Source of the DNA: Corbicula japonica
Lineage: Eukaryota; Mollusca; Bivalvia; Venerida; Cyrenidae
Length of the DNA stretch: 64,000 nucleotides
Direction of reading: 5' to 3'
NCBI GenBank assembly: GCA_038501625.1
Contig: JAZAYU010000009.1
Coordinates: forward strand, 4,711,001 to 4,775,000
Shown here: positions 1,312 to 56,480 of the stretch, piece after piece
How the letters are laid out: every line of letters starts with the position of its first letter
Position numbering within the stretch: the stretch's first letter is position 1
Position numbers and translations under genes: made by a program
Notes under the pieces: model-generated
What the model saw: the letters and a program-made list of their open reading frames with translations, nothing else
The model's database searches: none
Told to the model about the DNA's origin: nothing

Positions 1312-1556
1312 ACCTCTTACTCCATAGAAACGACTTTTATGGCATCAGGGAACAGTGTAGATCCTGAACAGCCACCTATACCATCTGATCAGAATATACA
1401 CTGTTTGCTTTGTGGTCAAAAATAACCTTATGAATAAAAAGACGAACAGTATAGATCCAGATCAGATGGCACGGATACGCTAGCTTATCCTTTATCTACA
1501 CTGTTAGCTCATGAATAGCAGCCATTACCCATGGAATAAAGGGTCAAATGTTTTTA
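1312..1556. repeat. Foldback dispersed repeat ('gatctacactgttt' family)
   Basis: The unit starts with a form of 'ttactccatag', runs into 'cagtgtagatcc', crosses a centre near 'ggtcaaaaataacct', and ends with 'gatctacactg' and 'catggagtaaaggtt', so its halves are loosely inverted. Related copies of varying decay lie at about 4300-4470, 4848-5052, 5186-5413, 5632-5874, 6978-7172, 7292-7390, 8601-8990 and 27598-27720. No open frame is present. It is most likely a non-autonomous element. Confidence 0.6.
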
Positions 1557-2489
1557 AAAGCTGTCCGCTTTATAATCAGTGTGCAGTATATTTGTCATCC
1601 TGGAATACACAGGTGTTATGCTGTAGGTCCTAGATGTATATTACATGTTTTGGTTTAATTTCATTCATGGGGTATATGAACTAAACTATCTTTCCATTTT
1701 ATTTGTTTAACTTGTCAAATTGTTGATCATTTACCTCAATTTTGATGCAATACATTTAAATTTTCAAATCTAATTTGTACAAAACGATACCCATATTATT
1801 TTAAATATGGATTGTACATTTATTTCATATGTCTGTTTGAAGACCTTGTTCAGTGAACTCTTTTTTTTTCAACGTGTCAGCTTTTGTTTTGCTTATTTTA
1901 GTATCATAGATTAAAGGATAGCGTTCTTAATGAAAAAGGTCTTAAAATGTTCTTAATGTAGATATTTTAGAAACCTGTATCATATGTTGTTTTTATCAGT
2001 GCAAGATATAAAGTATTTTAAAGCTTCAGCTCAGGAACTTGTATTTTAATGAATGATGTGGCCACAATTACATCATTCCAGATTAATCCTGAATTGATAT
2101 ATCAATTGTTCTATATATTTTATTCCTATTAATGCATAGTTTTTTATTTAATCAGAAAAAGATTGCATGAAATGGCAGCAATAGAGTTTATGACATTGAG
2201 TTTATAATATTATGTCAACCAACTTGAAACCATTTCTGAACCTTCACATTGAACCCATGTTTGAAAATAAGAAAGATAGTCTACAGTTTTAAAACAGTAG
2301 TTGTTGAAACAGTAATTGTTGAAACTGTAGATTACTGTATTGATTGTATTTTACCGAAAACAATCTGCAATTCACTTTAAAGCATAATAAAAATATGAAA
2401 TTATTTATCTCATAAAAAATAAATTTAGTTTGTAGAAGAGTTGATGTTTGTTATTTTTTACCTTTAACACATGAATCTAAACCAACTGT

Positions 2490-2628
2490 GCCCAAGATCA
2501 TAAAACTAAATCTGGAGATCAGTCTCAAATCTCAAGCATCTGGTTGACTGAAATGGTGACCAGTCGCCAGTCAATCAGATCCTTGAGATTTGAAACTGAT
2601 CTCAAAACTCAGTTTTATGATCTTGGGC
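2490..2628. mobile_element. Palindromic MITE-like element, copy A
   Basis: The termini 'gcccaagatcataaaact' and 'agttttatgatcttgggc' are inverted, and inner segments around 'cagtctcaaatctcaag' are repeated inverted on the other side, so the whole element can fold into one hairpin. It is non-coding and about 140 bp long. Relatives lie at 2807-2950, 4489-4633, 37677-37822 and 63443-63536. Confidence 0.75.
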
Positions 2629-2806
2629 CCAGATGTATCCATCTGATACTGAAGATTTCATTTATACATATACAATTAAATTAATGATGATGAACCCAAC
2701 AAGAACCAGTGAATCTTCAATGCAAATGCAAGTGTTTAACTTCCTCTTCATTTTTTGAGTCATGACTTTTTTTTTCTGACCAAGAAGCAGACAGTGTAGG
2801 TCCTGG

Positions 2807-2950
2807 CCTGAAGGTTATAAAGCTGAGATTGGAAACCAGTCTCAAATCTCAAGCATCTGATTGGCTGAAATGGCGACCAGTCGCCATTTCAGCCATTCAG
2901 ATGCTTGAGATTTGAGACTGGTTTCCATGCTCAGCTTTATAACCTTGGGC
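2807..2950. mobile_element. Palindromic MITE-like element, copy B
   Basis: The ends 'aaggttataaagctgag' and 'ctcagctttataacctt' are inverted, and the centre is a near-perfect palindrome around 'ggcgaccagtcgcc'. This is the subtype with 'ggttataaa' ends, whereas copies A and C have 'gatcataaa' ends. The hairpin is almost intact, so it is probably younger than copy A. Confidence 0.75.
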
Positions 2951-3330
2951 ACTGATCAGATGACATGTATGGACCATGGTTCTTGAATGCACCACTCCTC
3001 CTTGAGGTGAACATTTGTGTTAAGTTTTGCTGAGGTGCCTTTTGCAGTTGCAAAGTTATGCTCTCAACAAAAGATTTCTGTACAAATTTTGACATTAAAA
3101 GGTAAACTTTGACATTAAAGTGTAACCTTGACCTTTGAATCATGGTCAAGGTTCTGAAATGCAACATTAGGCCTCATTAGATGGACATTTGTGTAAAGTT
3201 TAAATGATGTACCATCATAAGTTAAAAAGTTATGCTCTGGAAAAAGGATCTGGGATGCATTCACACACAAATGCACATACATCAAACTGGCAGTGATAAC
3301 AAAGTTTGCTCACCACAAGCTGGCTAGTTA
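2951..3330. repeat. Dispersed repeat with 'aaagttatgctct' motif
   Basis: The segment contains repeated phrases such as 'caaagttatgctct', 'acatttgtgtaaagttt' and 'ttgaccttgaatcatggtcaagg', a style common in mollusc non-coding repeats. An apparent minus-strand frame across it has no recognisable motif and is treated as chance. Confidence 0.4.
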
Positions 3331-3394
3331 AAAACATAACAAATAATTAACTCTTTACTCCATATACAGGGGTCAAAGTTAGAAAAATGTAAAA

Positions 3395-3510
3395 GCCTGA
3401 AATAAAGCTGGGGGCCTGGGGGCCGCCGGTGGGTTCAGGGCAAAAGTCCTGGCCAGGGGTCCAGAGGGCCAGGGGTCCAGAGGGCCGGAGGCCCCCGGAA
3501 GCTCCTGCAT
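3395..3510. repeat. G-rich low-complexity patch with short direct repeat
   Basis: The patch contains two adjacent copies of 'ccaggggtccagagggcc' and other G runs in an otherwise AT-rich setting. It has no coding potential. Confidence 0.5.
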
Positions 3511-4488
3511 TTTAGTAAATTTCAAGGCTTATTCTTGAGTTTTCCTGAGACACAATTGTTCTAAAATATATTTTTTTCTCAACAATATATTCATTTGTCA
3601 TGTTGAAAATTGACAATTGAGAATGTTTATAAATTATGTAAATCAAGCCACTGATTAGACTAAATGATATTTTCTCTCTTTTCATTACATGAAGAATCAC
3701 AAGGCTACAAAACTAAATCTTATGCTTGCGAAAAAAAAAATTATTATTTTTTTTATAACAAACAAAATTATAAGCGTACTTTATTGTCTTGACACAGCAC
3801 TCGCAATATGCAGCGCCCGGAATATCGGGCTTTCTAAGCCAGATTTCCAACCTGTCACCGTTTTTGTCGCATTCTGAGAGCCATTCCGATTTCCATTTAT
3901 TTTTGACATCTATTTCTAGCGATTTGGTATCACAATCCAATTTTAAGAACTTCATTTTCATTTTCTCATGCTTTCCATGGAGGGCGCCATTTTGCCTGAT
4001 ATTACACTGATATTATGTTACGACGAATTTGATGCGATGATTTCAGCCTAAGTTAGCCTATTATACCCCAGTTTCAGCCAATCAAATTTGATGTTAGGTA
4101 CACGCGTAATTGCTAAGATAACGCGATTCGGGTCGATATGGTTGTCGTCGTATGACTTGTCTACAGTCCCCCCCCCAATATCTCCTCGGATTTACACGAT
4201 TTGGAAAAACGACCCAAGCCGCTCCCAAAAAAACGGAATTCAGGCATAAGCCGGAAAACTTTGACCCCTGCATATATAGTTTTTTTTTACAATTACACAT
4301 GTGCGACCAGTGTAGATCCAGATTGGCCAGCTCACCCATGCTGTCTGATCAGAATATACCCACTTTGCTTGTCGAAACATTAGGTTATTACTGACTATGA
4401 AGCAAACAGTGTAGATCCCGATCAGGTCGCATAAATGTATCTGGATCTACACTGTTGGAATAAAAGGTTAAAGAAACTAGAGTACCAG

Positions 4489-4633
4489 GGCCCAAGATCA
4501 TAAAACTAAGTTTTTAGATCAGTCTCAAATCTCAAGGATCTGATTGGCTGAAATGGTGACTGGTCGCCATTTCAGCCAATCAGATGCTTGAGATTTGAGA
4601 CTGATCTTCAGATTAAGTTTTATGATCTTGGGC
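4489..4633. mobile_element. Palindromic MITE-like element, copy C
   Basis: Left end 'gcccaagatcataaaact' mirrors right end 'agttttatgatcttgggc'. The middle palindrome 'gctgaaatggtgactggtc' / 'gccatttcagcc' is well kept. The family is the same as at 2490-2628. Confidence 0.75.
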
Positions 4634-6072
4634 ACAGTTTTACAAATCTGTCACTGTGACAAATATTCTATTAAGTTTTAGCAATTCAAGGAGTTGTAAA
4701 TAACTTACATACAAGTAACTAAGTCTTACATGAAATTTTATTTTAGATATATTCCAATGTTTTCACTCAAAACATCATTAACAGGAAAACTTTAAAATCG
4801 ACCATAATATATTTAAACTATTACTCCCTATATACAATTTTATCACACATACAGTGTAGGTCCAGACCAGTCGGCACAGTCATGCCTTCTGATCACGATC
4901 TGCACTGTTCACTTTTTGGTCAGAAATAACCTAATAAATCAAAAAGCAAAAAGTGTAGTTCCTGATTAGACAGCATAGACATTCTTGCTGATCTGGATCT
5001 ACACTGTTTGCCTTTGCCATAAAGACATTTATATGGAATAAAGGTTTAAGAGTGAATTTGTCAACTACAATCAAGATGGTCAGTAGCATGTTTCCTCACA
5101 AATGGACGGTGATGACAACTGCTCACTAAGGTGGGTAAGCAAATATTCCAAAGCATAGATATAATTAAATAGTTTATCATTTTCACCATGGGATATGGCT
5201 TTTATCTCATGGGTGATTAATGAAAATCCAAATCAGCCAGCAAATCCATGCAGTCAGATCTGCATCTACATTGTTTCCTTCTAGGTCAAAAATAACCTAA
5301 CGAATCTAAAAGTGAACAATGTAAATTCTGACCAGCCCACACAATGTACCAGCTGATCAGGATCTACACTGGGTCGCACATTGTATAAAAGCCATATCCC
5401 ATGGAGTAAAGGTTTAACAATGTTTAATATTATCAAGACAATTCAGTTTTCTATGCTTTGAAATACAACTTTACCCATGCTGATTACAACTCACAGCGTA
5501 TTTCTTATGCATTCTTTTTAATAATAAAGGTTCTAAGACATGTAATTACTGTTATACCAGGGCTGAAAAAATAAGAAATCAAGTCCAGGACAATTAATCA
5601 TGCTATTATTGAAAATTGTGAGCGAGTTTCCAACCCTTTACTCCATAGATACGACATGTATTGCAATGGCAAACAGTGTTGATCAAGATGAGCAGGCACA
5701 TCCATGCTGTCTAACCTATACCTAAACTGTTTCCTTCTTGGTCTGTCAGAAATAATGAAATGAATGTAAAAGCAAACATTGCAGATCATGATTAGATGGC
5801 TAGGATTTACCAGCTGATCTGGATCTACAGTTTACCAAATCATCTAAGTTGTATCCATCATGGAGTAAAAGGTTAACTGGCTTTTTCCTATCAAATGTGT
5901 TCATCCAAATGGTCAAATAATGGCAAAAAATGATTTTAAATACAACTTCAAACATCTCTCACAATTTCAACAATACTTCATTATATAAAAAACACAACAC
6001 TTATTTCAGTAACTCAAAATTTCTGTTTTACATTTTGCAAATAGAATCACCAGGAAGTCAGTTTACTAGTGT

Positions 6073-9000
6073 TCAGTACTTTTTCTTTCTTTTCATTAAC
6101 TTCTTGCGCACACCTGTTGATTCCTCAGTATCATCTTCCTGTTGCTCCGGACGATGTTTACGTTTCTTACTACTACTCTCAGTCATCTCCATCTTGGCGT
6201 GCCGCTGTGCCTCAGACACGCGCTCCATCAACAACATCACTTCCTGTTCCTCTGTCTTATACAGTGGCAACTGCTTGCCTATCAAATGCTCAATCCTTTG
6301 ATATAGTTCCACATCGTACTGTGTAACAAAGGTTATAGACTTTCCTGCACGACCTGCTCGTGCAGTTCTACCAACACGGTGAATATAGTCCTTAGAGTGA
6401 GTAGGAATATCTAGATTTATTACAACGTCAACGTGAGGAATATCAAGACCTCTGCTGGCAACATCTGTTGCTATCAATATAGACCTAGATTTACTCTTGA
6501 ACTTTGTCAGAGCACCGAGTCTCTTAGCCTGAGTCATCTGTCCATGTAGAGGTATGGCCATCAGACCTAGGTTTCTCAACATGATAGCTACCCTCTGTGT
6601 GTTAGCACATGTGGCACAGAACACCATAAACGAGTTGCCAGCCAGTTCATTGAGGATATACACCAGATATACATCCTTGAACTTTACCGGGATGAACAAA
6701 TAATACTGCTGCAATTTTTCAACAGTCTGGTATTTTGATGAGACCTCCACTTTTACCGGATCTTTCAGTGAAGCTCTCTGCAGCTTGGCAACCTTCTTTG
6801 TCATGGTGGCAGAAAATAGGTAGGTTCGTCTCTCTCTTGGTATAACCTTAAATAAAGAAGTTTTTTCAAAGTTTGCATGATTTTCATTTTTTACTAGACT
6901 GATCAAAATCAGGTTTTTCATAAAACTGACCAAACTGACCAAATTAATTTCACTGCGTTGTTCTTGTACATCATTTACCCTTTCCTCCATAGACAGACAT
7001 TGATTGCCTGGGCGAACAGTTTAGATCCAGATCAGACGGCACATCCTTATTCTTTAGGTTATTTCTGACCAAAATGCGATCAGTGCAGATCCTGATCAGA
7101 TGACACAGATGTGCCGGCTGATCTGGATCTACTCTGGTCGCACATGCGTAAACATGCGTATTTATGGAGCTCAATACAGCTTGTGTTATTTGTTACTATT
7201 TAAATAAAATTTACTTGACTGGATCAATTTCTATAAACTTGTGTTAAACTTATTTTGATTGTATGTGCTTCATACCTGTCATTACACCATTTACTCAAAA
7301 GATTTGGTTCGTATAACATGTGCAAACAGATAAGATCCTGATCACCGAGCACATCTGTGCAATCTGATCAGGATCTACACTGCTTGAATCATGGTGAGAC
7401 AGAACTGACGACAAATGCCGCACACAAACTATCACAATGTTTTGTATAGTTTTGTCAATGAGCATAGGTTGCTATGAAAAAGCATGCCATCATTTGGTTT
7501 GAAGTTAATGTGGCTGTTTCAACAGCTTATAGCCTACTCAAAAGGCAATGATAGAACAAACACTCCTCACTAGAAAAGAGAATATTAAGGAGTGTAAATC
7601 AAGGTACAGTAAAACCCTGCATTAGGACCACCTCGCTAATAAGACCACCATTGTGATGTCCCATTTTACAGTTTTGCACTGTTTTCTACCCCTATATTAC
7701 GACCACCCCATTATTGAGACCACTTTTTCCCAGTCCCAATGGTGCTCTTAATAGCGGGGTTTCACTGTACTGAACTGATATTTTACAAATTACATAAAGA
7801 AAGGATCTCAACTCTGTAATAAATTGAGCAGTTATTAAACCTGGATGAGATAAAAATGTCCAACAATCTATCAGAGTTTAGTGAAGGTAGGATAAGTAAT
7901 ACTTCAGTGCAGAGTGCAGACAATATTTTGTGGACACCATCTTGTACATGTGGTCCACATTTACATGTACATAGATCTCATCAAATAAGAGTATAAATAT
8001 ATGCCAGTCATGATCAACACCTTAATTAACAAGCTCTTACTTTAAAACAATTTTGTTACTTAAATATTGTGTCAATGAAGTAATAACATTTTAAAAATAA
8101 TTTAAATTATTTACTTTGATTATATAGACAAGCTCCAGTTTTCATGAAGTTTCCCTTCAATTTTACAAGTCCTTCATTTAAAGGATATTTCATTTTCCAA
8201 AAACAACATTTTCTTTCAACAGACAAATGATTATAAATATAATAACATTTTTCCGTATAACAATGTGTTTAGTAAACAAACCTTCAGAATCTTGTCCACT
8301 TCCTGTTCGAAATCCATGTTAAGGATCCTGTCCGCCTCATCCATCACAAGGAATTTCAGGGAGCGGAGATTGAAGCCCTTGGTGTTCTCCAGGTGATCGA
8401 CCAGCCGTCCGGGGGTGGCGATGATGATATGTGGCTTCTTGGCAAGCATTAAAGCTTGATTCATCATGTCTATACCACCAACAATCACACAGCATTTTAC
8501 ACCTGAAATTAATGTCTTTACATGAAAATATCATTACATATTGTTGCAATTTTTTTTAGAGTTGACACATGAATTAAGAATTCACATAACTACTTTTGAA
8601 TTTAACCCTTTACTCCTTATATACACATTTTAATGCATGTGCACCAGTTCAGATCAAGATCAGCCGACTTCCCAAATGTTGCCGGACTGAAGGACCTGTC
8701 TGGTGAAATTTGGGCCTGTCTGACAAGATTTGGTATGTTTTCAGACCGAGTGGCAAACAAATATTTGAACTGCTAAATTAACAATTCCTTTTTAACATGT
8801 TTTGATTAATCAGACAGAATTTGTTTTGGCCAGACTGGTTTTCACATCTTGTCTGACCAAATGTCAGACACTTTCTTTCAACTTTCAGGAAGCCTGGATC
8901 AGCTGGCATATTTGTGCTGTCTGATCTGGATCTAAATTGGTTGAAATAACCTAATAAATCTAAAAGAGAATATTGAAGATCCTGATCAGATTCAGATAAA

Positions 9001-12000: not shown

Positions 12001-13070
12001 ATTTAAAAAAAAATTTAAATTTATGGCAAAAAATGTTGCATCGGCATGAAAGAACATTTATCATAGTGAACAGGCATTTCATTGGCAGACGTCAAACTTA
12101 TCATATGTTATAAATTTTTTTACTATCCTTTTTAAGGTTTTCTAACTTTTCTTTTCCTCAAGTCTGCCATTTTTAAGCATAATAAATGCGTATCTTTTAC
12201 TCTTCATTAGTTACTGAAGGTGTCGAACACATCGATATTTAACACAAACCTCTCCGCCGTATTAAAATGGTTAGAAGAAAACATTATGTGCTACACTATT
12301 AAATTTAAAACTATCTATTTTTTCATTCAATGATAATAATCAAATGTTTTTATTCATTATGCTAATCTCTAACCAACCAGACCATATTAAAACATATTTG
12401 AAAGGACCACAGATGATTACTGCAGGTCTGTTTTAATTGTCAATCTCAGACCGGAACTACCCAGTGACAGGTGCGCGTTACAAAGGGAGGTAAATTAAGA
12501 CAGAATGTTGAGATAACTCTGTATATCGGTAGGACCCCATTGTTTATTGATCTATTATTTTTTATCAATAAACAATAACTTTTTGATAACTTTACCGATA
12601 GCCAGCCCTCATAGGACTTCTAGCCTCCGGACTCAACTCAAATAATATAAATAGTATAATTTTCTCTGACTGGCCTTACCAATGGTCGATCCAAGCGCTT
12701 CAAACTGTTCGGAAATCTGAAAAGCCAATTCTCGTGTAGGAGTAAGTATTAATGCAAACAGTCTCTGTGGATTGTCCAGCAGTGCCTGCAGGATCGGGAG
12801 GGCAAAGGCACCTGTTTTCCCTGACCCGGTTTCTGCCAAACCGATGATGTCTTTTCCTGTCAAGGCAATAGGGATTGATTCTCGCTGTATTTTGGAAGGT
12901 GACTTCCATTTTAATCCTTCACACGCTTCACATAGAACATCTACAACTCCAAGCGACTTAAACGTCACATTTTCGTCAGCTGTATCAGATATATGTTCGT
13001 TTGTTTGAGAAGATGACGGAGTTTCATCGTCGCTGTCAGCCATTTTAACACACGTGCTACCGGTGCTCAT
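6073..13070 (-). CDS. DDX47: DDX47 DEAD-box RNA helicase (three exons)
   Basis: This is an ATP-dependent RNA helicase of the DDX47/Rrp3 family, a nucleolar factor in pre-rRNA processing and 18S rRNA maturation. Exons run 13070-12680, 8502-8282 and 6846-6073; borders are GT/AG and phases agree, giving 461 codons, close to the family's usual 455. Visible motifs are the Q motif (F37...Q62), Walker A AETGSGKT (79-86), PTREL (111-115), TPGR (160-163), DEAD (185-188), SAT (216-218), [10 protein letters not shown] (330-339) and HRVGRTAR (360-367). The tail is lysine-rich. A second in-frame Met at residue 10 (13043), beginning MADSDDE, is an equally possible start. The gene is divergent from the RdRP-helicase gene about 2.7 kb away. 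Intron 2 (6847-8281) and intron 1 (8503-12679) hold repeats. Family assignment is firm; splice borders are read by eye. Confidence 0.95.
7614..7770. mobile_element. Short TIR element (MITE-like) in DDX47 intron 2
   Basis: The left end 'gtacagtaaaaccctgc' is the near-exact inverse of the right end 'gcggggtttcactgtac'. The body repeats 'gaccacc' several times and has no open frame. The length of about 157 bp fits a MITE. Confidence 0.6.
10701..11035. mobile_element. Non-autonomous TIR element in DDX47 intron 1
   Basis: Inverted ends of about 39 bp share 'aatagaaaattaattcctag' and 'attctcatcc' with only a few differences near the outer edge. The 335-bp body is non-coding. It is probably a non-autonomous DNA transposon; the superfamily cannot be told because no clear target duplication is visible. 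Confidence 0.6.
11128..12493. mobile_element. Candidate 1.4-kb TIR element in DDX47 intron 1
   Basis: The left end begins TTACCTCCC and carries 'tgggtagttccggt' about 30 bp in. The right end carries the same two blocks inverted ('accggaactaccca' then 'gggaggtaa') in the same order from the edge. A flanking TA on both sides could be a Tc1/mariner-type target duplication. The interior is AT-rich with no transposase frame. Confidence 0.45.
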
Positions 13071-15031: not shown

Positions 15032-15654
15032 TGACTTAATACATTCAACTCCCTCAAACGTGTTAAACATGGAAATGTACACAAACATTGTATATTCATT
15101 AAATGTGATTAGAAACCTTATCTCTTGATATTATCCCAGACTAATTACATGTAAAACTAACATCTTAAAAAGTTAATTTTCAAAGAAATATCTTGCTAAC
15201 ATAAAAGAAGCCATAATTTCTATGTTATTGTATTTGTCTACGAATATTGGCCATCTGAGGCAGAGGGTAAACTTAAAATATGTTGTTTTTACATAATCAT
15301 CCGAAAAATCACTGTATTGCCATCTGACATCAAAACTAGGTCACTATGCAAATCAAATAACAACCCTTTAAAACTCATAAGAGACAATGCGTTCCGTCAA
15401 ATTCTATCCATACATATATTTTACTGTTATATGAAAGTAATATTATAGGATAAACCATTAAGTCAATATAAAAATAATAGAAACTATTTTCACATGGGAC
15501 CGCATTTCACATTCTACTGTATTTACCATAGCCTACTTACTAAATCTTTTTGTGATTATGAAATTTAGACAACATTAAATATACACAATATGCAAATCAG
15601 GAAAGGACATACACAGAAAAAACAACCTCTCTACATAGCCAACTACAACACACA

Positions 15655-15712
15655 AAAACGCACACACGCACGCACACACACAGAGAGGGAGGGAGAAAGA
15701 GAGAGACACCAC
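15655..15712. repeat. CA/GA simple repeat
   Basis: A (CA)n run with CG interruptions passes into a (GA)n run. It lies in frame with the downstream RdRP coding exon and so extends its open frame artificially upstream to 15590. The encoded Arg/Thr/Glu-rich stretch is unlikely to be translated. Confidence 0.85.
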
Positions 15713-15740
15713 ATCATGTGGGACATAGAACATTTTATAT

Positions 15741-15766
15741 TTAATTTGTGTATTCCTTTGTTTCAG
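15741..15766 (+). other. Probable 3' splice site before RdRP coding exon
   Basis: A pyrimidine-rich tract ending 'tttgtttcag' immediately precedes the region where the protein becomes recognisable. The exon would start at 15767 with AAT TTC TGG in frame. This argues for at least one upstream, possibly non-coding, exon. Confidence 0.6.
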
Positions 15767-15779
15767 AATTTCTGGAACG

Positions 15780-15794
15780 ATGGAAAGATGGTGA
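15780..15794 (+). promoter_or_regulatory. Minimal upstream ORF overlapping the RdRP start codon
   Basis: ATG GAA AGA TGG TGA (15780-15794) is a four-codon frame whose stop overlaps the main start at 15788, one frame away. The main ATG has A at -3 and G at +4. If 15788 is the real start, this arrangement could lower or gate translation. It is meaningless if translation begins in an upstream exon. Confidence 0.4.
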
Positions 15795-18700
15795 ACATCG
15801 TTTTCTGTGGCCCAGCTGGAGCTGGAAAGAAAAGAGTTCTAAAGGATGTCAAATCAACGTGTAAATCACGTGCCAGAGATCACGTTGAAATACTACGCGT
15901 GGCTAGCAGAGTTCTGAACCAGCACGGTATTCGCTCACGTGAAGATTATTGTCGCGATGATAAGAGCTTTGGAGAAGTCCACTCTGACATCATTATTCAA
16001 CAGTGTCACGAAGAAACACAGTATCACGATAGAGAGATTATTACAGACAATTGCATTATATATAATCTGGCGGTTGTACAATCATGTTTAGGAGCTGAAG
16101 AAGTCGAAGTTTTGCTTACAGACTCAACAGTGCTTGAATGCATAGAACGTTACAAACGTTCCCTTGTTTTGTTGCTTTGTCCAGATAAGTTTGGTTACGA
16201 CGACGGAATATGCCTAAAGTTATCCGAAGAATCATGGTCTGTAATTAGGGATTACATACTTGGTATGTTCCGGACATACCATATACCTTTTGTCGAGATA
16301 CGATCGGCCGATCACACGGAACGTGTTACAATCGTAAAGGAAGCGTTAGATGGGAAAATTATGCTAGAATCATCTACTCTCTCATATTATCAAAAGGGGA
16401 ATGAAGACCAACGCCTGGTTGAATTTAACTTTTTATTCCACATTATCAAACTTCGACAGGAGAACAGTGTCCTGATTCCAACAATCGAGATCACTGAACA
16501 CTACTCTAAACAAGGCTGGACATGCTACAACAATGGAGAGACTAACAGATTTATTGCAAAGGAGGGAAGTACAAATCTGGCCTGTCTGAACTTTCATATC
16601 AGTGTAAAATCAACTTCTGTACAGAAAACGCTTCTTGGTGGGGTCTTTATTAACGGCGAGATGTATTCTTTTCTAGGATGTAGTGCAAATGGCCTGAAAA
16701 ATAGGAAGTGCTTCATGTTAAAAGGTAAGCCAGAGGATGTTGAAGAAGTTTTAAAAAGGAATGGAGACTTTGCTTCCATAAAGACGGTGTCAAAGCGACT
16801 TGCACGAATAGGTCTTCTATTTTCTGGAGTCAGACTTTCTACCATCAAAGTAGAAGAAGAAAACATAATCATTATGAAAGACATAGAGAAGGGAGTCCAT
16901 GATAAAGTGTTTAACTTCACAGATGGATGTGGAGGTATCGGCGAACAACTTGCAAAAGACCTAGCTGTCGAAATATGTGAACACCAATTGGAGTGCGGCT
17001 ACATACCGTCCGTATTTCAAGTACGTTTTCAAGGATACAAAGGAGTTTTGGCAAAAGATCTTAAAATTCATAAGAATGCAATTGCCGTTCGACCTTCAAT
17101 GAAGAAGTTCGAAACCACTGCACATCCGTTTATTGGTGTATGTGACTTCTCAAAACCATACACATTCGGACATTTGAACAAACAGTTCATTGTCTTGCTA
17201 TCGGGACTTCGTATAAAAGACTCAGTATTTGAAGAGAGGCAAAACACATATTTGGACATGCTCAGAAAAATGGTGACACATTCCGAGTCGGCTATTCAAA
17301 TTCTTCAGTGGCAAAATATGTTTGATGTCGCTCAGCGGATAAATAGAGCTGGTTCTATTGATGATTTACCTGTAGAAGAGAAGATCACAATTCAGAAAAA
17401 ACTAAAACGCCTGCAGAACGATATGGTACAGAAGGCCCAGAAGCTCAATATTCTTATCCCGGAATCGAGAAACATTTTTGGAGTGTGCGATCAAGTAGGT
17501 ATTTTACATTATGGCCAATGCTTCCTGCGTCTTACACTGTCTGGAAAACCAACGACAATTCGGGGACAAGTAGTTGTGTGTAAGAACCCATGCTATCTTC
17601 TTGGGGACGTTAGAGTTCTTACTGCTGTTGATGAAACAGATAATCCTGAAATAAGAAAGCTTCATCATCTAGTTGACTGCATAGTGTTCCCTGTTTGTGG
17701 GAAATGGCCTCATCCTAATGAAATAGCTGGCTCTGACCTTGATGGTGACCAGTTCTTTGTATGTTGGGACAAAGACCTCATTCCAAAATCTACAAGACCA
17801 GCCTACAACTACCCTGGGTCTGACTCGAAATCAGAAGGGACTATTAGTAGAGAGAAAATGATAGCTTACTTCGCCTCACAAAATGAAACGCAAAAGCTCG
17901 TTGCGAGAGTTGATAAGTATTTTCATCAGTGGGCAGCAAAGAAAGGTCCAGAATCAGATAAATGTGAAAGATTAGGTCAACTTTTTTCTAAGGTCATAGA
18001 TGCTAGCAAAACTGGAGAAGTTGTAGACATCCCCCGAGGACTTGAACCAACAACTGTTGCAGAATCTGAAAGTTCTTCAGTTGAAGTACAAAGATTTGTA
18101 TGGAGTAAAATGGTTTCAATAGCCGCTCGATTCGAAGAAGACTTTACTGCAAAGCTGCTGAGTGAACAAAATGAAACAACGGAACACGATATCATTTCAG
18201 AAAACTTTGTTATTGAATTGGCTCAGAGAACTTATACCAATATCAGAGAGTACGAGAAGTTTGTTTTCATATGGAATTACATACATCTGTCAGAAGGTAC
18301 ACTTACGGCTGCGCTGGAAACTTTCATGAACGACTACTTCCAGTATGTTAATTTCTCCACGTTTACGGCAGAAGAATTAAAAGAATGCATAGATCTAGGC
18401 ATACCTAGCAAAATGGTATTAAATGCACTGAACTCATCGAAAATAGTTACAGAAGATGAATTGAGCTTTTTCCTGATGGATAGTCCACAAAATACATGGA
18501 AGCATGTTGTAGCTTTGGATCATGATACGTTCGATTGGAGTCATCTGCTTAAGGCTGTCACAACAAACGACAACACTCTTTTAGTATTCAAGATGCCAGA
18601 TGGCGTGGTGATCGAACTTCAGATCCTTGAAAAACTTTCAAAGGGATTGGAACAACCGGTTATGCCAGGTACGTTTACTGGTGTATTGTATTCTAGACAT

Positions 18701-21631
18701 TTTGATTATAAGGAAAAGTATGTGCTTGGTAAAGAATACGTTTTGGACCTCACTGATAGTACCCTTCAGCTATACAGAGACGGCAAAAAGAATCTAACCT
18801 TTGTTTGGTTAAACGCTTCCGACCGAAAACTAACTAAAGGGCGATGGGATAAACGTCTATGTGAAGAAGTGAACAACACAATGAGTGTCGATTTGCAACG
18901 TTTTAATCGAAGAATTTTAAATCCAGGTAGAAAGCATCCCCTTATCAACAAGATGCCATTCGTAAAATTGGAAATATATGCACAGAATGGAAGAGGGGAA
19001 GCACCATACTGGGATATTGCCGACGTGAACGATCTTCTCCCTGTTTTCGACGAGATGTGTGAAGAAACAGGAAACAATGAAACGTTCGTGGTAGACTTTG
19101 ATGCATTATTTCCAAAGTGCGAAATTGACGACATAGACGACATTTTGAAAGCAGAAGATCTATTTCAAACTCTTGATAATGCTGCTAGAGAAGGCGATCT
19201 TTACAAATACAGTTCTGTGTTGTCAAAGTGGACAGGCTCAGAAATACCAGAAGAATGTGTCTTTACTTTTATGAAACTGTTGGAAAGTTTAGTTACTAAA
19301 ATCACACCGTTAGTGTTACCTGATGACTTTCAGAGCGCTCTTATTCAAATTGTTGCAAAATTATCACCTGCTCTGAAGGATCCAGAATCATTGTTACAAG
19401 TCATCTCAAGCCTTTATAGACTTGGAGCCGACGACATCGTTCACCAGCTTTTGCAAATTCCTCTAAAACCAGCGGAAACAAAAACGTATTTAGCTGTTAT
19501 GGAAAAGTGGGAATGTTTAAGTCTTCTTGATACACGGTTTGTGATGTCTTTCGTGGTGCAGCTTCAGCTTTCATGGACAATAGCAGTAGAGAGTAAACAT
19601 TATATGAATGATTTTCAAAGACAGCAAGACGCTTATGTGCACAGATTGGGAATACTTCATATGATGACACTTGTACAAGAAGTATACCAAAATATAGAAA
19701 TAACCAAACAGGCCAGTTCTGAATCATCTGGAAGACAAAGGGCATCAGTTTCCCCAAACTGCATAACTCATCTCAGGGTAGACAGAAACGCCGAGGAAGC
19801 ACCAACTACAATAGCTTTCTACCGAACAAGCGCACTTGAACAGAGTGCAATGCGATTCAAAGGCCAGTATGTGACAATAGCACTACAAAACAACACATCA
19901 GATGTCGGCGACGTGCACCGTGTATGTTGCGTAGGTCAAATCCAAAACCTCAACGCAGCTCCTTTTTCTGTGTCAGTAAAGATTGAAGGGCAATTACCCG
20001 AGGTACTGCTACAGGCCACTAGGTCTGAGAAGATATGGTACTGGAGGATAGATATTATTGCAAATATTGTTACATATCAGCGGGTTGTAAAATCGCTAAG
20101 AATTGTTCAACTTGCCACTGAAGAGCAACAGGTGATTTGTAAAGTCTTCCAGTCCTCAAGAAAAGAGATAGATGTACCCGTGCCTATATTGCGGGTAGAT
20201 TCACATTCAGTTGATTGTGAGCGATTGAATTCTAGTCAACGTGAGGCAGTGAAAGCCGCGTTGGAAGATATAGTGTCTCTGATTCAAGGTCCACCAGGTA
20301 CGGGTAAAACGGAAGTAGCGTGCCACTTGATAAGAGAAATTGTTAAATCAAAACATTACAATGGAATTCTTGTTGTAGCTGAAACGAATGTAGCAGTTGA
20401 CAATTTAACAAGACGATTGAGAAATGATGTTGTTGTAGTGAGAGTAGGACCAGTGGAAGGTGTAGAAAGTGATTTGTACGATGTGTCGTTGGAAGGTCAA
20501 GTGAAAGTCATAGCAGAAAGGGAGGCGAGAAAATCAAAGGTACGTGATAAACAAGGGGACGTTCACAACAATACCCGCTTAATTAATCGTGTTTTATCAG
20601 CCGCAGATGTTGTTCTTACAACGTGTGCAGGAGCCGGAGATTCGCGCCTGGAAAATTACACATTTCCTTTTGTTCTTGTTGACGAAGCAACTCAGACCTT
20701 AGAGACAACTCTTCTTTGTAGCTTGGTACACGGAGTAAAGCACCTTGTTATGATTGGAGACCCAAAACAGCTTGGGCCTATTTCAAAGGAGTTTCCGGAA
20801 GGTAAAGACGATCCAAATTTGCCGAAACTTGACTGCCTTTCTGAAACATTATTCCACAGATGGTATAATGAAGGTTTCTTGAAAGTGAGCTTCCTAGATG
20901 TTCAGTATAGGATGCATCCCGCCATTATGCAGTTTCCGTCCAGTGAATTTTATGATAACAAACTGAAAGCGTCCTCGACTACACAAAACAGACTCCCAAT
21001 TATTTTTCCATGGCCAAACGACGGAAGACCATTATGTTTTATTGATATTGATGGCACTGAAAGAAAGCATGGAACATCCTTCTACAATAAAAGTGAAGTG
21101 GAAGCTGTTTCTAAAGCCATTGATGTGTTGCTTAGCGTTGATGAAGAATCTTACCGGAGTCACAGAATTGGTGTTCATCAGATTGGTGTGATTACAATGT
21201 ACCAAGGTCAAGTTCAGAAGCTGAAAGAGGTCATCCAGTGTGCTATTAAAGTAAGTACTGTTGACGGATTTCAAGGACAGGAAAGAGATGTCATCATTGT
21301 TAGCACCGTTCGGAGCAATAGTAGAGGGTCACTGGGGTTTTCGGACGATGAGAGACGGTTAAACGTTCTACTGACGAGAGCCAAGAGGGGACTTGTCGTC
21401 ATTGGCAACAGATCCACATTACAGAATTCACGCACCTGGGGCATGTGGTTGAAGAGCGCGCCACAAATGAAATTGGAGAACTTGAAGCCAGTAAGTGGTT
21501 CAGCGTCAAAACCTGAGGACAGGCAGAAAGGTCAAGTGAATAGACCACAGAATACAGAAAACAGAGACAGTTCTAAACGAGGCACCGGTAATACTAAACG
21601 ATATCAGACAACGATCTACAAGCGGCGTTAA
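15788..21631 (+). CDS. RdRP-SF1 helicase fusion with N-terminal P-loop module
   Basis: This is a single-exon gene of about 1,947 codons. Residues below count from an in-frame Met at 15590, so start Met 15788 is residue 67. N-terminus: GPAGAGKK (74-81), then a region patterned like NadR/AAA_28 kinases, with the usual Ser/Thr after the P-loop Lys replaced by Lys. Next comes a eukaryotic RdRP (about 350-900): DGCGGI (445 on), QVRFQGYKG (477 on), VRPSMKKF, GDVRVL (672 on) and GSDLDGDQF with catalytic Asp 716, 718 and 720. A largely helical stretch (about 930-1440) matches nothing I know. Then comes an SF1 UPF1/ZNFX1-type helicase: GPPGTGKT (1567-1574), DEATQ (1698-1702), GDPKQLGP (1723-1730), QYRMHP (1772-1777), VSTVDGFQGQERD (1888-1900) and LNVLLTRAK (1924-1932). 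The tail is basic. Expected role: copying RNA into dsRNA for small-RNA pathways, with helicase remodelling. The 66 upstream residues are probably intronic. Confidence 0.93.
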   Translation: MVNIVFCGPAGAGKKRVLKDVKSTCKSRARDHVEILRVASRVLNQHGIRSREDYCRDDKSFGEVHSDIIIQQCHEETQYHDREIITDNCIIYNLAVVQSCLGAEEVEVLLTDSTVLECIERYKRSLVLLLCPDKFGYDDGICLKLSEESWSVIRDYILGMFRTYHIPFVEIRSADHTERVTIVKEALDGKIMLESSTLSYYQKGNEDQRLVEFNFLFHIIKLRQENSVLIPTIEITEHYSKQGWTCYNNGETNRFIAKEGSTNLACLNFHISVKSTSVQKTLLGGVFINGEMYSFLGCSANGLKNRKCFMLKGKPEDVEEVLKRNGDFASIKTVSKRLARIGLLFSGVRLSTIKVEEENIIIMKDIEKGVHDKVFNFTDGCGGIGEQLAKDLAVEICEHQLECGYIPSVFQVRFQGYKGVLAKDLKIHKNAIAVRPSMKKFETTAHPFIGVCDFSKPYTFGHLNKQFIVLLSGLRIKDSVFEERQNTYLDMLRKMVTHSESAIQILQWQNMFDVAQRINRAGSIDDLPVEEKITIQKKLKRLQNDMVQKAQKLNILIPESRNIFGVCDQVGILHYGQCFLRLTLSGKPTTIRGQVVVCKNPCYLLGDVRVLTAVDETDNPEIRKLHHLVDCIVFPVCGKWPHPNEIAGSDLDGDQFFVCWDKDLIPKSTRPAYNYPGSDSKSEGTISREKMIAYFASQNETQKLVARVDKYFHQWAAKKGPESDKCERLGQLFSKVIDASKTGEVVDIPRGLEPTTVAESESSSVEVQRFVWSKMVSIAARFEEDFTAKLLSEQNETTEHDIISENFVIELAQRTYTNIREYEKFVFIWNYIHLSEGTLTAALETFMNDYFQYVNFSTFTAEELKECIDLGIPSKMVLNALNSSKIVTEDELSFFLMDSPQNTWKHVVALDHDTFDWSHLLKAVTTNDNTLLVFKMPDGVVIELQILEKLSKGLEQPVMPGTFTGVLYSRHFDYKEKYVLGKEYVLDLTDSTLQLYRDGKKNLTFVWLNASDRKLTKGRWDKRLCEEVNNTMSVDLQRFNRRILNPGRKHPLINKMPFVKLEIYAQNGRGEAPYWDIADVNDLLPVFDEMCEETGNNETFVVDFDALFPKCEIDDIDDILKAEDLFQTLDNAAREGDLYKYSSVLSKWTGSEIPEECVFTFMKLLESLVTKITPLVLPDDFQSALIQIVAKLSPALKDPESLLQVISSLYRLGADDIVHQLLQIPLKPAETKTYLAVMEKWECLSLLDTRFVMSFVVQLQLSWTIAVESKHYMNDFQRQQDAYVHRLGILHMMTLVQEVYQNIEITKQASSESSGRQRASVSPNCITHLRVDRNAEEAPTTIAFYRTSALEQSAMRFKGQYVTIALQNNTSDVGDVHRVCCVGQIQNLNAAPFSVSVKIEGQLPEVLLQATRSEKIWYWRIDIIANIVTYQRVVKSLRIVQLATEEQQVICKVFQSSRKEIDVPVPILRVDSHSVDCERLNSSQREAVKAALEDIVSLIQGPPGTGKTEVACHLIREIVKSKHYNGILVVAETNVAVDNLTRRLRNDVVVVRVGPVEGVESDLYDVSLEGQVKVIAEREARKSKVRDKQGDVHNNTRLINRVLSAADVVLTTCAGAGDSRLENYTFPFVLVDEATQTLETTLLCSLVHGVKHLVMIGDPKQLGPISKEFPEGKDDPNLPKLDCLSETLFHRWYNEGFLKVSFLDVQYRMHPAIMQFPSSEFYDNKLKASSTTQNRLPIIFPWPNDGRPLCFIDIDGTERKHGTSFYNKSEVEAVSKAIDVLLSVDEESYRSHRIGVHQIGVITMYQGQVQKLKEVIQCAIKVSTVDGFQGQERDVIIVSTVRSNSRGSLGFSDDERRLNVLLTRAKRGLVVIGNRSTLQNSRTWGMWLKSAPQMKLENLKPVSGSASKPEDRQKGQVNRPQNTENRDSSKRGTGNTKRYQTTIYKRR

Positions 21632-47700: not shown

Positions 47701-50700
47701 AAAAAAATATGCGGCGATGCTGCTATGTGTCGTTACATTACATAACACCAGTGAATATGCGTATAGGTATTACCTGATATCCAATCATGAGATAGAATAT
47801 TTCGTGAGATAGAGAATAACCATTATATCCCATTCTAGTCATCATTTCCCAGCATTGTGGCGATATTTGGCACCTTAACCTCGAGTTTGGACTGCAAAAC
47901 ATTGAACTTAGTGGAATTTTAGTTTTCATCAATGCTACCATGACTTGGCTACCTGTTCATATTATTAACACTCTTTTCGTCCACGAATGAATGCAAAACT
48001 GCATTAATTGAAAATTCTTTCAACAGGTAAAATTTACAATTTGTCGCAAAGGCACCGGTAATAGGTAGATAAATGTCCCTTCCTGTCATAGGTTATTAAT
48101 GTCTTACTGCAATCCCAATATAGGTTCTTACTAATACATGTAAAGTAAGTTGTTTTTACAATTCCGCAAGGATGCAGTAACTGTACACGTTAGTGAAACT
48201 TATTTCACTATCCTGTGTGTAAATATACATGTTCTATTGTCAAAATCAACAAGTATTATAAAAACCTAATGTTTTTAAATACCATTATCAAATGTGGCCT
48301 TGAAATTACAAAAAAAAAACTTTTCGCGTGTATGTGACAGATCGTTTTGAATTTTCTTAATTCTCATTTAAGCGATTGTTAAATAATATTTTTACACTAT
48401 TTCACCGTTATTTTCTCGTATATTTTCCAACATAACTAGAGAGTAATAATCACTCACCCATTAAAAACTAGTAATTTGAAAGAAGAGTATTAACGAAAAT
48501 GTGATTTTGATTTATATTTTCTAAAATATAATAATTGCCACCATACACAATACCGCCGACAGCATGTTAAGTGTTATCAGCAACTGGTGCGTTTATATAC
48601 ATTAACTCGGGTGTTGCTGACTTCACATGTTAATCCATTTTGTTGGTCTGTATCGAATAGTAAGACATGCGTTTCTTAAAAAGTTAAAGGATAATAAACT
48701 AAATACAATGTACAACCACTTTAAATACTAAACGATTTTTTGGCTCAGTTCAAATGATAACAATGAAAACCGGTCCCAGCATAATCGCTGTCTTGATTGC
48801 GTTACTGAGCCCCCTTCTGTGATACAGAGCGGACTTAAAAGCTATATTCGTTTTTTTAAGCGTTTATTCACCAAAATAAAAAGCAAAATGCATACTGATT
48901 CTCGCTTCAGAAACTTTCATCAAACTTGTATATGTTCTCGTACTTTAAATTAGGATTTTATTGGATTTTTCAACAGAAACGCGATTTGTTCGTCAATTAG
49001 TATAAGCAATTACCTCATACATAAAACAACAAGGAAGAAATCTCGAGAAAATGAAGGTACCTACCGTTGTTAGTGTTTCTTGTTCGCCATTGCTATGAAG
49101 CCGAATCAGTAACATAATCAAGGCATTGAAAGTATGTGCTAAACTTTTATAAAGTCTTTTTCTCACTTAAGTAACTATGACGAAATATGGCATCATATGT
49201 TAATTACAAGATACACGTATTATTTGCGGTACGTATATCTTGGAAACTTTTAAGGTTTTTGGAATTAAAGTCACCATAGATTCTTTAAAAATCAACCATA
49301 GTAGTTACCCTGTTCCGAAGAGTTCTGCTATACACATGTCCGAGTGAAGAAGATTGAGCAGCTCGCCTTCTCTGGGAGCCCATGCACGCGAGAAGTCCTC
49401 AACTCGCAAATTCTTGCTTGCAAAGTTTATTCTCCAAAAACCTTTCTGTAATACTCCACCGATTCCTATTCAATCAAGCATTACAGAAAATAACAGAACA
49501 GGTTTTTAAATGGAACTAGTATTGAAAACAATATTAATAACAAAATAGAGGAATCATTACAACGAATACGTTATACATGTGAACAATCACTCTTTTTTTA
49601 AACAAAACTTACGGGCGAAGTACATAGGGCTTGACGCTTGTATATGCGGCACACCTATATCACTGGTAATTTCTGCGAGCGCCTGCACTGCTCTGATCTC
49701 TTGTAGCGTCGCGCCGTCTATCGGCCATGAAGCTGGGTCATGTTCAATGCGATATAAGAGCACTGCTAATGTTCCTGCAAAGTAAATACATGTACTAATT
49801 ATCGGTGCTCTTAACATCCTACCTGACAGCAGTAAAAGAACATGTTATTTAGTATTGCGAAAATGTTTTTTAAAACCAATGGCAAATTTCTATATTGGTC
49901 TATAAAAACTCGCGTGAGAAGCTGAAATCAAATAATCCTCTTTGTCTACTTATGATTTTCCACTTCTCTTCCTCATAATTTAATAAACGTCATGTTCAAC
50001 ATTCTCATTAAAAAGCTATTGCAAGAGAAAATAAAACCTTAATTGCTTGTAACGAACACAGAGCATTTTACTGATGGTTCTTTTATGATGATTATACTTT
50101 ATGGACTTGTCAGGACCTTATCGAGTCCCTCCTTTTTACTGGATTATACTTACGTTAGTTTCGGTACCTCTATAAACAAACAAGTAATTGGCAACCCCAT
50201 GGGTACTAATAGTGCACTCCTTGTTTCTGATCCAATTTAATATTGTTACAAAATTATTTTCTGCTATCTTTTTCTACCGAATATCAAGGTGACATTATTA
50301 CAGCCCTTGACAACACATCGAGGTACCATGGTTTGTTTAATATAGATAATAATAATTTTCCATCTATGATAACTTAAAATTATCATTATGAACTACAGCG
50401 CTTTATAAAGCGAATACTTCAGAAAAGCAAGCACATTTTCCGGATTTAAATCTTTCTATTGAAAATGATTACGTCACTATAATATATGAACACACATCAC
50501 ATTTTAATTTTAAAATAATTGTAATTTTTTTTTTTTACAGACAGTGGTGTTCCTCGTGCAACATCTTGGGTATCTCGAAGCTTGTTTCGTTTTCTAGAGC
50601 TTGAACCAATATTAAAGATTTTAATGAACGCAATCTTTGCATAACAGAAAAAAAACTTTAAAAACAGGGTTATCGGTACCTAAACGGTACTGTTCAAAAT

Positions 50701-53700
50701 CACTATTGCATTTAGGTATTTCACAGCCACTTTTATGAAGATTTAAAAATTAAATAAGCTAAAGGAAATAAAAGGTAATACTAAAATCTACACGGTTTCG
50801 CAAAAGAAAGGGTAAGTAATAGAAAAGTACCCAACATGATATTCTACAGCGATCTGCATGCCTCTATAGTTGATCGTTATGCTTACCTCTTTGTTTGCAC
50901 GACTGTGGTAGGGGTTTAAAAGTCTATGAAGATTTATATTGAAATCTTGACAAAGAATATGGAAGCTCGATCCGTTTTTTTATCCCTGCCATCGTGTTCT
51001 TGCTGATTTGACTCCAGGGACTTTGATCTCGATAATGTCATTAAGTACCTTCCCTTTAGCTTTACAAGGCTGTAAGCTTCTTATATGTTATATATTTATG
51101 TGCTTCTGCAAACAACATTGATGAGTAGATGCGTTGGTTGAAGTTATTTCACCAAGATAACTTGTACTTGTTTCTTCATATAAGAACATATTTGGGCAAG
51201 TTCCTTCTAGATCCTGGTTCAAACCTCCAGTAGCAAATCGTTTTGTCACTGACCGTTCCAAGGCGGTACCCCAAAAGGTTCTCTTTTTCTTTAATTGTTT
51301 GTGGTGTCTCATTTGAAATTAATATTCTTATAAACACATGCTCTCTTTTCCATTCCACTTTTTGGCTGCGAGCGGAGACTATGTCTTCTGGCGATTTCTG
51401 ATATTCATATTTCACTTTCTTTTAAATAAGGAACTAAGTTTAAGCAATCTTGAACTCCCAAGAAGTGATGAAATAGTTGCCGTTACATGTAGGTTTACGA
51501 AAAACAACCGATGTTTTCCATGTCGATATATTTTTACTTTAAATATCATTTTTAAATCATGCTGAAAATAAAAGGTAAAAATCGGGACTTGCTAGAACAA
51601 TATGAAACTATATTGATAAAAATAACTTAGAATTAACTGTATTTACTAATATGTGCTATAACATTTAATACACGTTAATGTTCAGTTAAACATTGAAAAC
51701 GTACCATCATTCGAGCTGGAAGCATAATAGAACTACGCGTTCCCAAAATAAAATAATATTTTATAATATAATATGTTTCTTACGACTGTAATTCGGTCTT
51801 TGTTATTGAACTACAATAAATTACAGTTACATGTAATGTATATCACATATGCATTACACATAACATTTAAATGCTTATTTAAATTGTAGAAAAGAATAAA
51901 AGCTTCTAGTAAACTCAATGTTTGCGTACCAGCCTGTCCATCTCATTATTGCATGATCGATTGTTGGCCTTTTTGCGTTAGTCATCTTATGATGATGTAT
52001 TTGAAGAAAATAAAAATATCAATGCATTTTTCTGGTTACACGAATCACATAATAAAAATGATATTTAATGAAGTAAGAAATTCTACTTATAGATATAACA
52101 AGCGTCCATCGCTATCGTTGTTAAACCTCTTTTGTTCTGTACATTATTAAACCCAAACGTGTGTTCGATCCTCATATTTTCTTTACAGACTTGTGATTTA
52201 TTGAGGTTGCATCGCCGATGGTGGTTGCGTCGCTGCTGGGGTGTATGATGAAGGAGATGGTTTTGGTTTTGAATTTTCTGTTTTTGGACGGCGATGTTCC
52301 CCGTGCGGCGTCTTGTGGGGTTTGTGTCTTACAGCTTGTTCGCTTTTCAGGGGCTTGCGGCGGTGTTAGTGATTTCGGTGGGCGTGATCTTTGCGTTGCA
52401 GAGGGGCTTTTGGGGCAGGGTTGTCGGTGTCGCAGGTTGGGGAGGGCCTTTTGCAGGTTTTGTCGCCGGTGCCCGGATCTGGTTCGTGGGTGCGGGTGCA
52501 GTTTGAGGTCGCTTTTGCGGCGGGGTGTTTCACGGCCGTTTTTTTATGGAGATTTGGTTTGTGGGCTTGGGAGGATGAGGGGCAATGCTGGTTTTGGAGA
52601 GAAAGGTTGCCGACGTGGTGTTTTACAGCACTCTGCGGGCCTGGTGGTTGGCTCTTCTGCGGTTGGTCGTTGTGCTTGCCTCTTTGGTTGCACGGCGGTG
52701 GCGGGGGTTTGGGGGTTTGTTGGGGTTTGTGGGGAAGTCTTTTCTTGAGGGGGCCTGGAGGCTCGGTTTGTTTCTTTTGTCCCTGTCGTCGTGTACTTGC
52801 TGGTTTTGCTCCGGGGGCTCTGGTCTCAGTGGAGGTCATTGAGTACCCGCACTTTGGCTTTGCAATGTTATTAGCTTCTTATGTTTTATATGTTTGTGTG
52901 CTTTTGCATGCAACATTGTTGAGCCGATAGGTGGGTTGGAGTTTTTTCACCAAGACAACTTGTACTTGTTTTGTGATATGAGAACCTGTTGGGGCAAGCG
53001 TGAGGTTGGTGCGCCCTAGAACCTGGTTTAAACCCCCAGTGGCAATTTGATTTGCCACTGACCGTTCCAGGGCGGTAGCCCCTCGGGTTCTTATTTTTGT
53101 TTATTGTAAGTGGTGTCTTTTTTGAAACTTATCATTGTATTAACCATGCTCTCTGCCTTTCTCTTCTTCTTGACTGTGTGGGGAGGCTGTTTTCTCTGAA
53201 TGTGGCGATTCCTGATATGCATATTTCACCTTTTTACAGAGATGAGAGCACATGCAGTTTAATCAGCATGAAGACTCTGACAAGCTTAATAGAAAAGGAT
53301 CGAGTGTTTAAGAGTTTTAAGATTTGTCCTAGAAACTTCAATAAACGCTAAACTCCCGCCACATTTGTGCAACCTTTAAGTTTGTGTCTAGCTACCAAAC
53401 ATACTCACAACATATCTGTAGAGCCAAAGTGAATTACTTTGTGAATTTATGAATAGCTAAAATAATAAAAAGGACGGTTTCTGCTTAAAAACTGTTCAAA
53501 AAATTGAGCAAGGAATTCAATTTTTAGTTGAAAACTGTGTAGAAAAATCTCACTAAATTTCATTCCGAGCGAAAGTTACTGAACAAAAATGGTTCACAGA
53601 TTTTCAACTAGCAACCCGCCCAAAGTTTTTTATTAAAGCCTACGTCGCAAGCTATTTGAAATATTCAGAAGTTACCATACAATAATTATATCACAGAATG

Positions 53701-55566: not shown

Positions 55567-55969
55567 ATTACAACCGCAAAAGGATGATTTTTGAAGAATG
55601 CCCTCCGTCTATGCATGAAGTTTAATAGTTATGCACTATGCACTATGGACTAAACGAAAAAGTGATTTTTGTTTAAAGATTATTGTCAAGTCACGCGAGT
55701 TTCTTCTTTTTATAGAAACGGGTTGATCTATTCGTTGTACCTTTTTCACTGTTGGTTGGACACTTAAATCAAATAACATTTAAACAAAATGTCATTATGT
55801 CTGCATTGTGACAAAACCTAAACCCTAATGTAAATTGGGAAAAAAATAAAAATATTATTCAAAGAAACATGAAGAAAAACTTTTCATTGATATAGCTTCT
55901 TAATAGAGTTGTTAAGCATCTTTGTGGATAATTTTTTTCTGGATGATGAATTATTAATTAACCTTTCTA

Positions 55970-56480
55970 CAGTTGCTCGTTATGCTTACCTCTTTGTTTG
56001 CACAATGGTGGCAGGGTTTAAGAGTTTATGAAGGTATATAGGGAAATCTTTTAAAAGACGTAGAAGCTCAATCTGTCCCTGTTCCTGCTGTTTTGGCTCC
56101 ACAGTAAGATCAATGAGTACCACCCGCTATGCTATTAGATACTATATTTTATATGATTTTGTGCTTTTCCTTGCAACATTATCAAATTGGTGGGTGTATT
56201 CGAGCTAACTTACTAAGACAACTTGTACTTATTTGTTCATATGAGAACCTGTTGGCGCCTGTGCAAGGTTGGTGCATCCTTGAATTTGGTATAAACACCC
56301 AGTGGCAAAATTGTTTTGCCCTTGACCGTTCCTAGGCGTAGCTTATCTCATTATCGTTACTTGTATGTTTTTGATGTCACATTTGATAAACCCATGCTCT
56401 CATTTCCTCTCTACTTTTTTGCTGCATGTTGAGACTGTGTTTGCTGAATGTAGCAGTTCCGGATGTGCGTGTTTGTATCT
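55970..56480 (+). mobile_element. Retroelement 3' portion, ordinary base composition
   Basis: 'gcttacctctttgtttgcac' and 'ctgttttggctccac' match the end of the A-depleted body near 52670-52820. The tail follows with 'gagaacctgttgg', 'cagtggcaaaattgttt' and 'ccatgctctcatttcctc'. It is a second in-window comparator showing that the element normally has A at sites that are G in 52200-52850. Confidence 0.65.

Follow-up and report, generated by a model that had tools for sequence, protein, structure and literature searches.

RNA editing normally disappears along with the RNA, and a programmed exchange of adenine for any base during reverse transcription is found in diversity-generating retroelements. 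The latter resemble the case presented here in that changes are limited to the adenines of an RNA template, but differ from it in being programmed and in leading to any base, whereas in our case 545 of 577 changed A's are replaced by G. A-to-G hyperediting by ADAR is known for the retroviruses RAV-1, avian leukosis virus and HTLV-2/STLV-3 (cited in PMC8586724). Here, too, A-to-G clusters would have arisen in RNA that then served as template for a reverse transcriptase; however, those are exogenous viruses, while we deal with seven insertions of a genomic retroelement that appear to be of different ages. In molluscs, ADAR1 is reported to avoid a 5' G and to lack a strong 3' preference on the RNAs of oyster and abalone herpesviruses (PMC6651903). 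The base change, the avoidance of 5' G and the lack of a strong 3' preference recur in our case, albeit in genomic retroelement DNA instead of viral transcripts captured by RNA-seq. APOBEC-type DNA editing of genomic retroelements is established as well, and one survey of it states that A-to-G clusters are not over-represented in its high-quality DNA traces from human and Xenopus (PMC2873906). It has in common with the present case that clustered changes of one class, made by a host deaminase, are fixed in retroelement copies; it differs in that G-to-A changes stem from cDNA, while A-to-G changes here would stem from RNA. A record of A-to-G hyperediting in germline retrotransposons, as opposed to that of retroviruses, is apparently unreported: the accessible text of a review on editing and retrotransposons (PMC5974252) contains nothing comparable, and the open-access literature, covered mostly by titles and the beginnings of abstracts, yielded no recurrent A>G-hypermutated germline retrotransposon copies among the entries listed, which is weak evidence of absence.

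The window analyzed, i.e., the whole stretch of DNA under consideration, comprises 64,000 nucleotides from the genome assembly of the bivalve Corbicula japonica (1.07 Gb, 1630 contigs). According to the original prediction, made from the letters of the window, it contains a retroelement copy with near-total, strand-specific A-to-G hypermutation at 52200..52850 that was caused by ADAR editing of an RNA duplex with subsequent reverse transcription and insertion.

Structure and Base Composition of Copy E

The copy in question, termed E, was delimited by alignment with 36 other members of its family from the genome. The relevant features of the window are:

50236–51421, plus strand: older family member without editing, used as the relative for comparison in the original prediction
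52182–52189, plus strand: TTTACAGA, left half of a possible target-site duplication, doubtful
52221–53235, plus strand: E, 5'-truncated retroelement copy bearing the A>G changes
52227–52835, plus strand: hyperedited zone of E, 136 of 184 A's changed to G
52836–53235, plus strand: 3' part of E with the common 3' end of the family, almost unedited, 4 of 72 A's changed
53233–53240, plus strand: TTTACAGA, right half of the possible target-site duplication
53234–53374, minus strand: old family fragment in inverted orientation, immediately following E and matching 52686–52830 with 60–67% identity, not edited in appearance
55965–56474, plus strand: second older family member, likewise without editing

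A recount of positions 52261–52800 gave A 43, C 90, G 213 and T 194 (n = 540), with A identical to the number originally reported. General GC bias is ruled out as the cause, since T still accounts for 194 of 540 bases, i.e., about one third, just as had been argued. The lowest number of A's per 540 bases anywhere in the window, 41, is reached within the A-poor stretch of E, and the minimum elsewhere is 107 (starts outside 51601–53000, step 60).

The 5' junction of E at approximately 52221 was seen once A and G were treated as equal. Upstream of this junction the A content is ordinary, and the edits start at 52227 and thus adjoin it. The zone ends abruptly, with the last edited A's followed by unedited ones within a few bases. 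The predicted stretch comes close to the edited zone, and the word pairs that had been quoted for E and its relative are present in the sequence. On the other hand, the term "near-total" is too strong for a zone in which about 75% of the A's are changed, and while the A-poor stretch exists as described, the copy that carries it continues almost unedited to 53235. E is without 33 family bases after 52592 and without eight after 52269, and several unedited A's directly follow the 33-base gap.

A convincing target-site duplication was sought at E and rejected: there is only the 8-base match TTTACAGA, and it is doubtful because about 31 bases separate its left half from the element. The older copy at 50236–51421 differs from the family by 15 A>G, 30 G>A, 22 T>C and 30 C>T changes. 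Several further 3' fragments of the family occur in other parts of the window.

Substitution classes were determined in a family alignment of 37 rows, in which the majority base was derived from 34 copies that are not A-poor; the aligned copies were chosen by similarity to E and do not constitute a random sample. Compared with this majority over 1015 sites, E exhibits 140 A>G (among 256 aligned A's), 3 G>A, 5 T>C and 8 C>T changes as well as 11 transversions. The 34 ordinary copies have 0 to 8 A>G changes apiece, which speaks against an ancestral origin of the base composition. APOBEC-type DNA editing was rejected, as G>A (3) and C>T (8) are rare next to 140 A>G. With well over 100 A>G changes and little else, E is a young insertion. 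Among its 27 differences other than A>G, 18 are also present in at least one other sampled copy and nine are absent from all of them. Five of the 18 (alignment columns 267, 374, 557, 685, and 700) are common to L006, L011, L026, L016, and L005 and mark a subfamily that includes E.

Further Hypermutated Copies in the Genome

The search for other hypermutated copies that had been proposed for the family yielded six. Two A-poor copies, L002 (contig C277) and L003 (C680), were found with E as query, and L039 (C206) is the fourth A>G-hypermutated copy. Three more, L051 (C720), L052 (C187), and L053 (C110), were reached with a probe consisting of a majority fragment (approximately reference positions 939–1623) in which every A was replaced by G, with 40 scored of 2865 candidates. 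The seven edited copies matched this A>G probe at 74 to 84% identity, the baseline being about 72%; a copy whose edits are restricted to the 3' UTR would escape it. The number of seven is a lower bound, because the probes cover the last 1 kb of the element and 40 candidates were scored per search. L054 was dismissed as an edited copy, with A>G making up just 10 of its 32 differences, and L040, L041, and L042 turned out to be unedited.

From 45 loci and the window, 86 of 107 matches had at least 20 differences. Among these 86, the share of A>G exceeded 0.3 only in matches of E, L002, L003, and L039, and a share of T>C above 0.3 was seen in none. A 300-base skew scan of 279,816 bases, a total that includes overlaps twice, picked out E, L002, and L039 only; as it missed L003, the scan is not fully sensitive. 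The differences of the seven copies from a reference that is slightly unlike the 34-copy majority are given below, together with the percentage of all non-A>G differences and the best-fitting end of the edited zone in reference coordinates (of 1993).

Copy: A>G / G>A / T>C / C>T / transversions; non-A>G differences; zone end
E: 142 / 5 / 5 / 9 / 20; 3.8%; 1599
L002: 86 / 7 / 15 / 20 / 42; 7.1%; 1546
L003: 55 / 4 / 1 / 4 / 18; 3.3%; 1373
L039: 65 / 7 / 11 / 18 / 53; 13.8%; 1789
L051: 85 / 7 / 6 / 20 / 37; 6.3%; 1350
L052: 111 / 14 / 16 / 25 / 73; 15.2%; 1836
L053: 41 / 3 / 4 / 9 / 29; 5.2%; 1385

Since the non-A>G differences range from 3.3% to 15.2%, the seven events seem to be of different ages. 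Beyond their zone ends, E, L003, L039, L051, L052, and L053 are nearly clean. The zone of L002 is blurred, with 61 of 101 A's edited inside and 25 of 209 outside, and L003 features two edited patches with a clean gap between them. L003 ends with its contig short of the 3' end, and the six copies that reach the last 157 bases are near background there (A>G 9/129, T>C 21/415).

Strand Specificity, Neighboring Bases and Independence of the Events

The zones of the seven copies together contain 950 A's, of which 545 were changed to G, 25 to T and 7 to C, while 373 remained unchanged. Changes of T to C affect 24 of 1108 T's in the same zones, in agreement with the strand specificity originally proposed. 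A mirror probe, in which every T was replaced by C, gave 64–67% identity compared with 65–68% calculated for an unedited copy, so that no T>C-hypermutated copies were apparent among the 40 scored of 120 candidates. On these two grounds, sense T>C as the second half of a process affecting both strands was rejected. Editing of first-strand cDNA would show as sense T>C; the near absence of this class therefore indicates that the change happened in the sense RNA, before reverse transcription.

Pooled over the copies, the edited fractions by 5' base are 156/236 for T, 215/346 for A, 99/188 for C and 75/148 for G. The resulting order T>A>C>G is supported by permutation within copies (p = 4e-5), a 5' G is depleted among edited A's in the pooled data (p = 0.007) and an effect of the 3' neighbor was not seen in them (p = 0.69). 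For E alone the fractions are 43/47 (T), 54/69 (A), 23/35 (C) and 18/33 (G), with p = 0.007. The neighbor preference expected for ADAR thus shows in the pooled counts and in E itself, but not in every copy: the 5' effect is modest overall and was not seen in L052 or L053 taken singly.

The number of co-edited A's was at chance level in all 20 pairs of copies tested (smallest p 0.07), with zones set by eye on the same data; the one remaining of the 21 pairs has too few common sites. When three pairs had been compared previously using broader zones, L002/L003 had 30 co-edited A's vs. 22.6 expected (p = 0.012), whereas the by-eye zones give 30 vs. 27.0 (p = 0.28). As edited sites coincide as by chance in 20 of 20 pairs, the hypermutated copies represent separate events.

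The Element Family

The family is large, as judged from 1905 to 7836 candidate places in the assembly (initial searches, 40 scored per search), and its copies have variable 5' starts and a single common 3' end. The open reading frame that ends in the fragment present in E spans 489 amino acids from stop to stop in L031 and L022 and contains the motifs YLDD and PMGTNCAP. It has no match in Pfam. A sequence comparison of the element with the PDB gave nothing useful, and the phage collection gave no match. Relatives of the open reading frame numbered 3282 among 7996 predicted proteins scored, and two of the 120 relatives listed are records named Candidatus Thiodiazotropha, a group of symbionts of lucinid clams. 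RVT_1 was below cut-off in three of eight relatives. For the relative P0010, a weak model (pLDDT 65.6) had human telomerase as its top match (Foldseek E 6.1e-4, TM 0.24). A GIY-YIG endonuclease had no Pfam match in two open reading frames of the C. japonica genome or in eight relatives, and a hammerhead ribozyme had no Rfam match at gathering score in six loci, in which the 5' region may be missing. We read the element as a candidate Penelope-like, telomerase-like reverse transcriptase of the kind described in PMC11167929 and keep the assignment to the Penelope-like elements tentative because neither endonuclease nor hammerhead was found. One 5' flank is common to L012, L015, L021, and L030 (observed for L012 and L015), pointing to a larger duplicated unit; L015, L021, and L030 are located within 5 kb on contig C89.

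Candidate Editing Enzyme and Possible Duplex Partners

Adenosine-deaminase domains (PF02137) are encoded on five contigs of the assembly (19 matches of 31 scored) and in none of 14 control genomes; the same domain is also found in relatives of ADAR. ADARs require double-stranded RNA and reach about half of the A's in long duplexes. The longest helix in the predicted fold of the element RNA measures 14 bp, so that a second strand is needed for a duplex, and self-pairing was accordingly rejected. The inverted fragment at 53234–53374 was likewise discarded as partner, since its match of about 145 bases cannot explain a zone of 609 bases. Possible candidates for the partner strand are an antisense transcript, read-through of two inverted copies or the product of a cellular RNA-dependent RNA polymerase. 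At L043, an unedited copy (1–1720, minus strand), inverted relative to L002, and a hyperedited copy (5310–6510, plus strand) are about 4 kb apart, an arrangement that could yield a long RNA hairpin. The window itself contains a 2013-amino acid open reading frame at 15590–21631 (plus strand) that combines a cellular RNA-dependent RNA polymerase (PF05183, E 2.4e-106) with an AAA_11/AAA_12 helicase. In principle, this polymerase would be capable of turning transposon transcripts into double-stranded RNA. By eye, the open reading frames at 6073–6990 and 12633–13070 (both minus strand) resemble parts of a DEAD-box RNA helicase gene.

Origin of the Hypermutated Copies

E is very probably a germline insertion derived from a partly double-stranded RNA that underwent hyperediting by ADAR and was then reverse transcribed. 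A sense transcript of the retroelement would have been partly paired with complementary RNA, and an ADAR-type adenosine deaminase would have converted most A's of the paired stretch to inosine. The reverse transcriptase of the element would then have started at the unedited 3' end and read inosine as G, and the cDNA would have been inserted with 5' truncation. Inosine in a template is mostly taken for G by reverse transcriptases (PMC10877575). As the 3' end must be readable for reverse transcription to start, presumably only RNAs that are unedited there leave copies. Editing of an RNA duplex followed by insertion, as originally proposed, is supported by the data, and none of the findings that had been named as speaking against it was made, be it an ancestral base composition, mutation on both strands or changes inherited by related copies. 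Several observations do count against the ADAR reading, namely the 75% editing in the zone of E, which is high for ADAR, the modest neighbor effect that is missing in L052 and L053 taken singly, the failure of L002 to fit one sharp zone and the need for an unseen partner strand. The excess of co-edited sites in L002/L003 in the wider-zone test counts against independent events.

It is improbable that C was misincorporated opposite A of the template by the reverse transcriptase, whether because the enzyme errs specifically at adenine, as in diversity-generating retroelements, or because dTTP was scarce during copying. Such an error would explain why changes occur only at A of the RNA template and in reverse-transcribed copies, but G is found at 545 of the 577 changed A's where diversity-generating elements give any base, and the order of the 5' neighbors suits ADAR. 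Furthermore, copying has to begin at the 3' end, but several hundred bases there are clean before the changes set in abruptly. DNA, too, can gain strand-biased clusters, and ADARs act on the DNA strand of RNA:DNA hybrids. Deamination of DNA, either in an RNA:DNA hybrid at integration or by a later local process linked to transcription, is nevertheless very improbable: editing of cDNA predicts sense T>C, of which the mirror probe found no case in its 40 scored of 120 candidates and the zones hold 24/1108, and the edits in E begin beside the 5' junction and stop within the element.

An A-poor lineage of the element passed on by ordinary replication might be suspected from the subfamily variants that E has in common with L006, L011, L026, L016, L005 and others. 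These sister copies are not A-poor, however, and the 20 tested pairs show no sharing of sites above chance, so that inheritance from such a lineage is refuted for the seven copies and hardly conceivable in general. The evidence consists of assembled sequence only, which leaves room for an artefact of assembly or sequencing. Such an artefact is extremely improbable in view of seven loci on seven contigs with differing site patterns and unique flanks, some of them with many later mutations overlaid.

Implications

With ADAR hyperediting of a partial RNA duplex as the preferred explanation for E, one element family seems to have brought edited sequence into the germline no fewer than seven times. 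Past duplexes on transposon RNA would thus be readable from DNA with regard to strand, extent and enzyme preference and could be dated by the ordinary mutations overlaid on them. Moreover, one insertion can depart from its source at more than 100 sites all at once, and molecular dating of that copy would go astray. A much broader scenario, which we consider rather unlikely at present, is that double-stranded RNA formed on retrotransposon transcripts in the germline of this animal, possibly by a cellular polymerase such as the one encoded at 15590–21631, is a regular target of ADAR hyperediting that keeps transposons in check, and that the RNAs which escaped have left a datable fossil record in which the zone ends map each duplex. 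Whether ADAR restrains retrotransposons in animals can be tested on such copies, with a scan applicable to any assembly.
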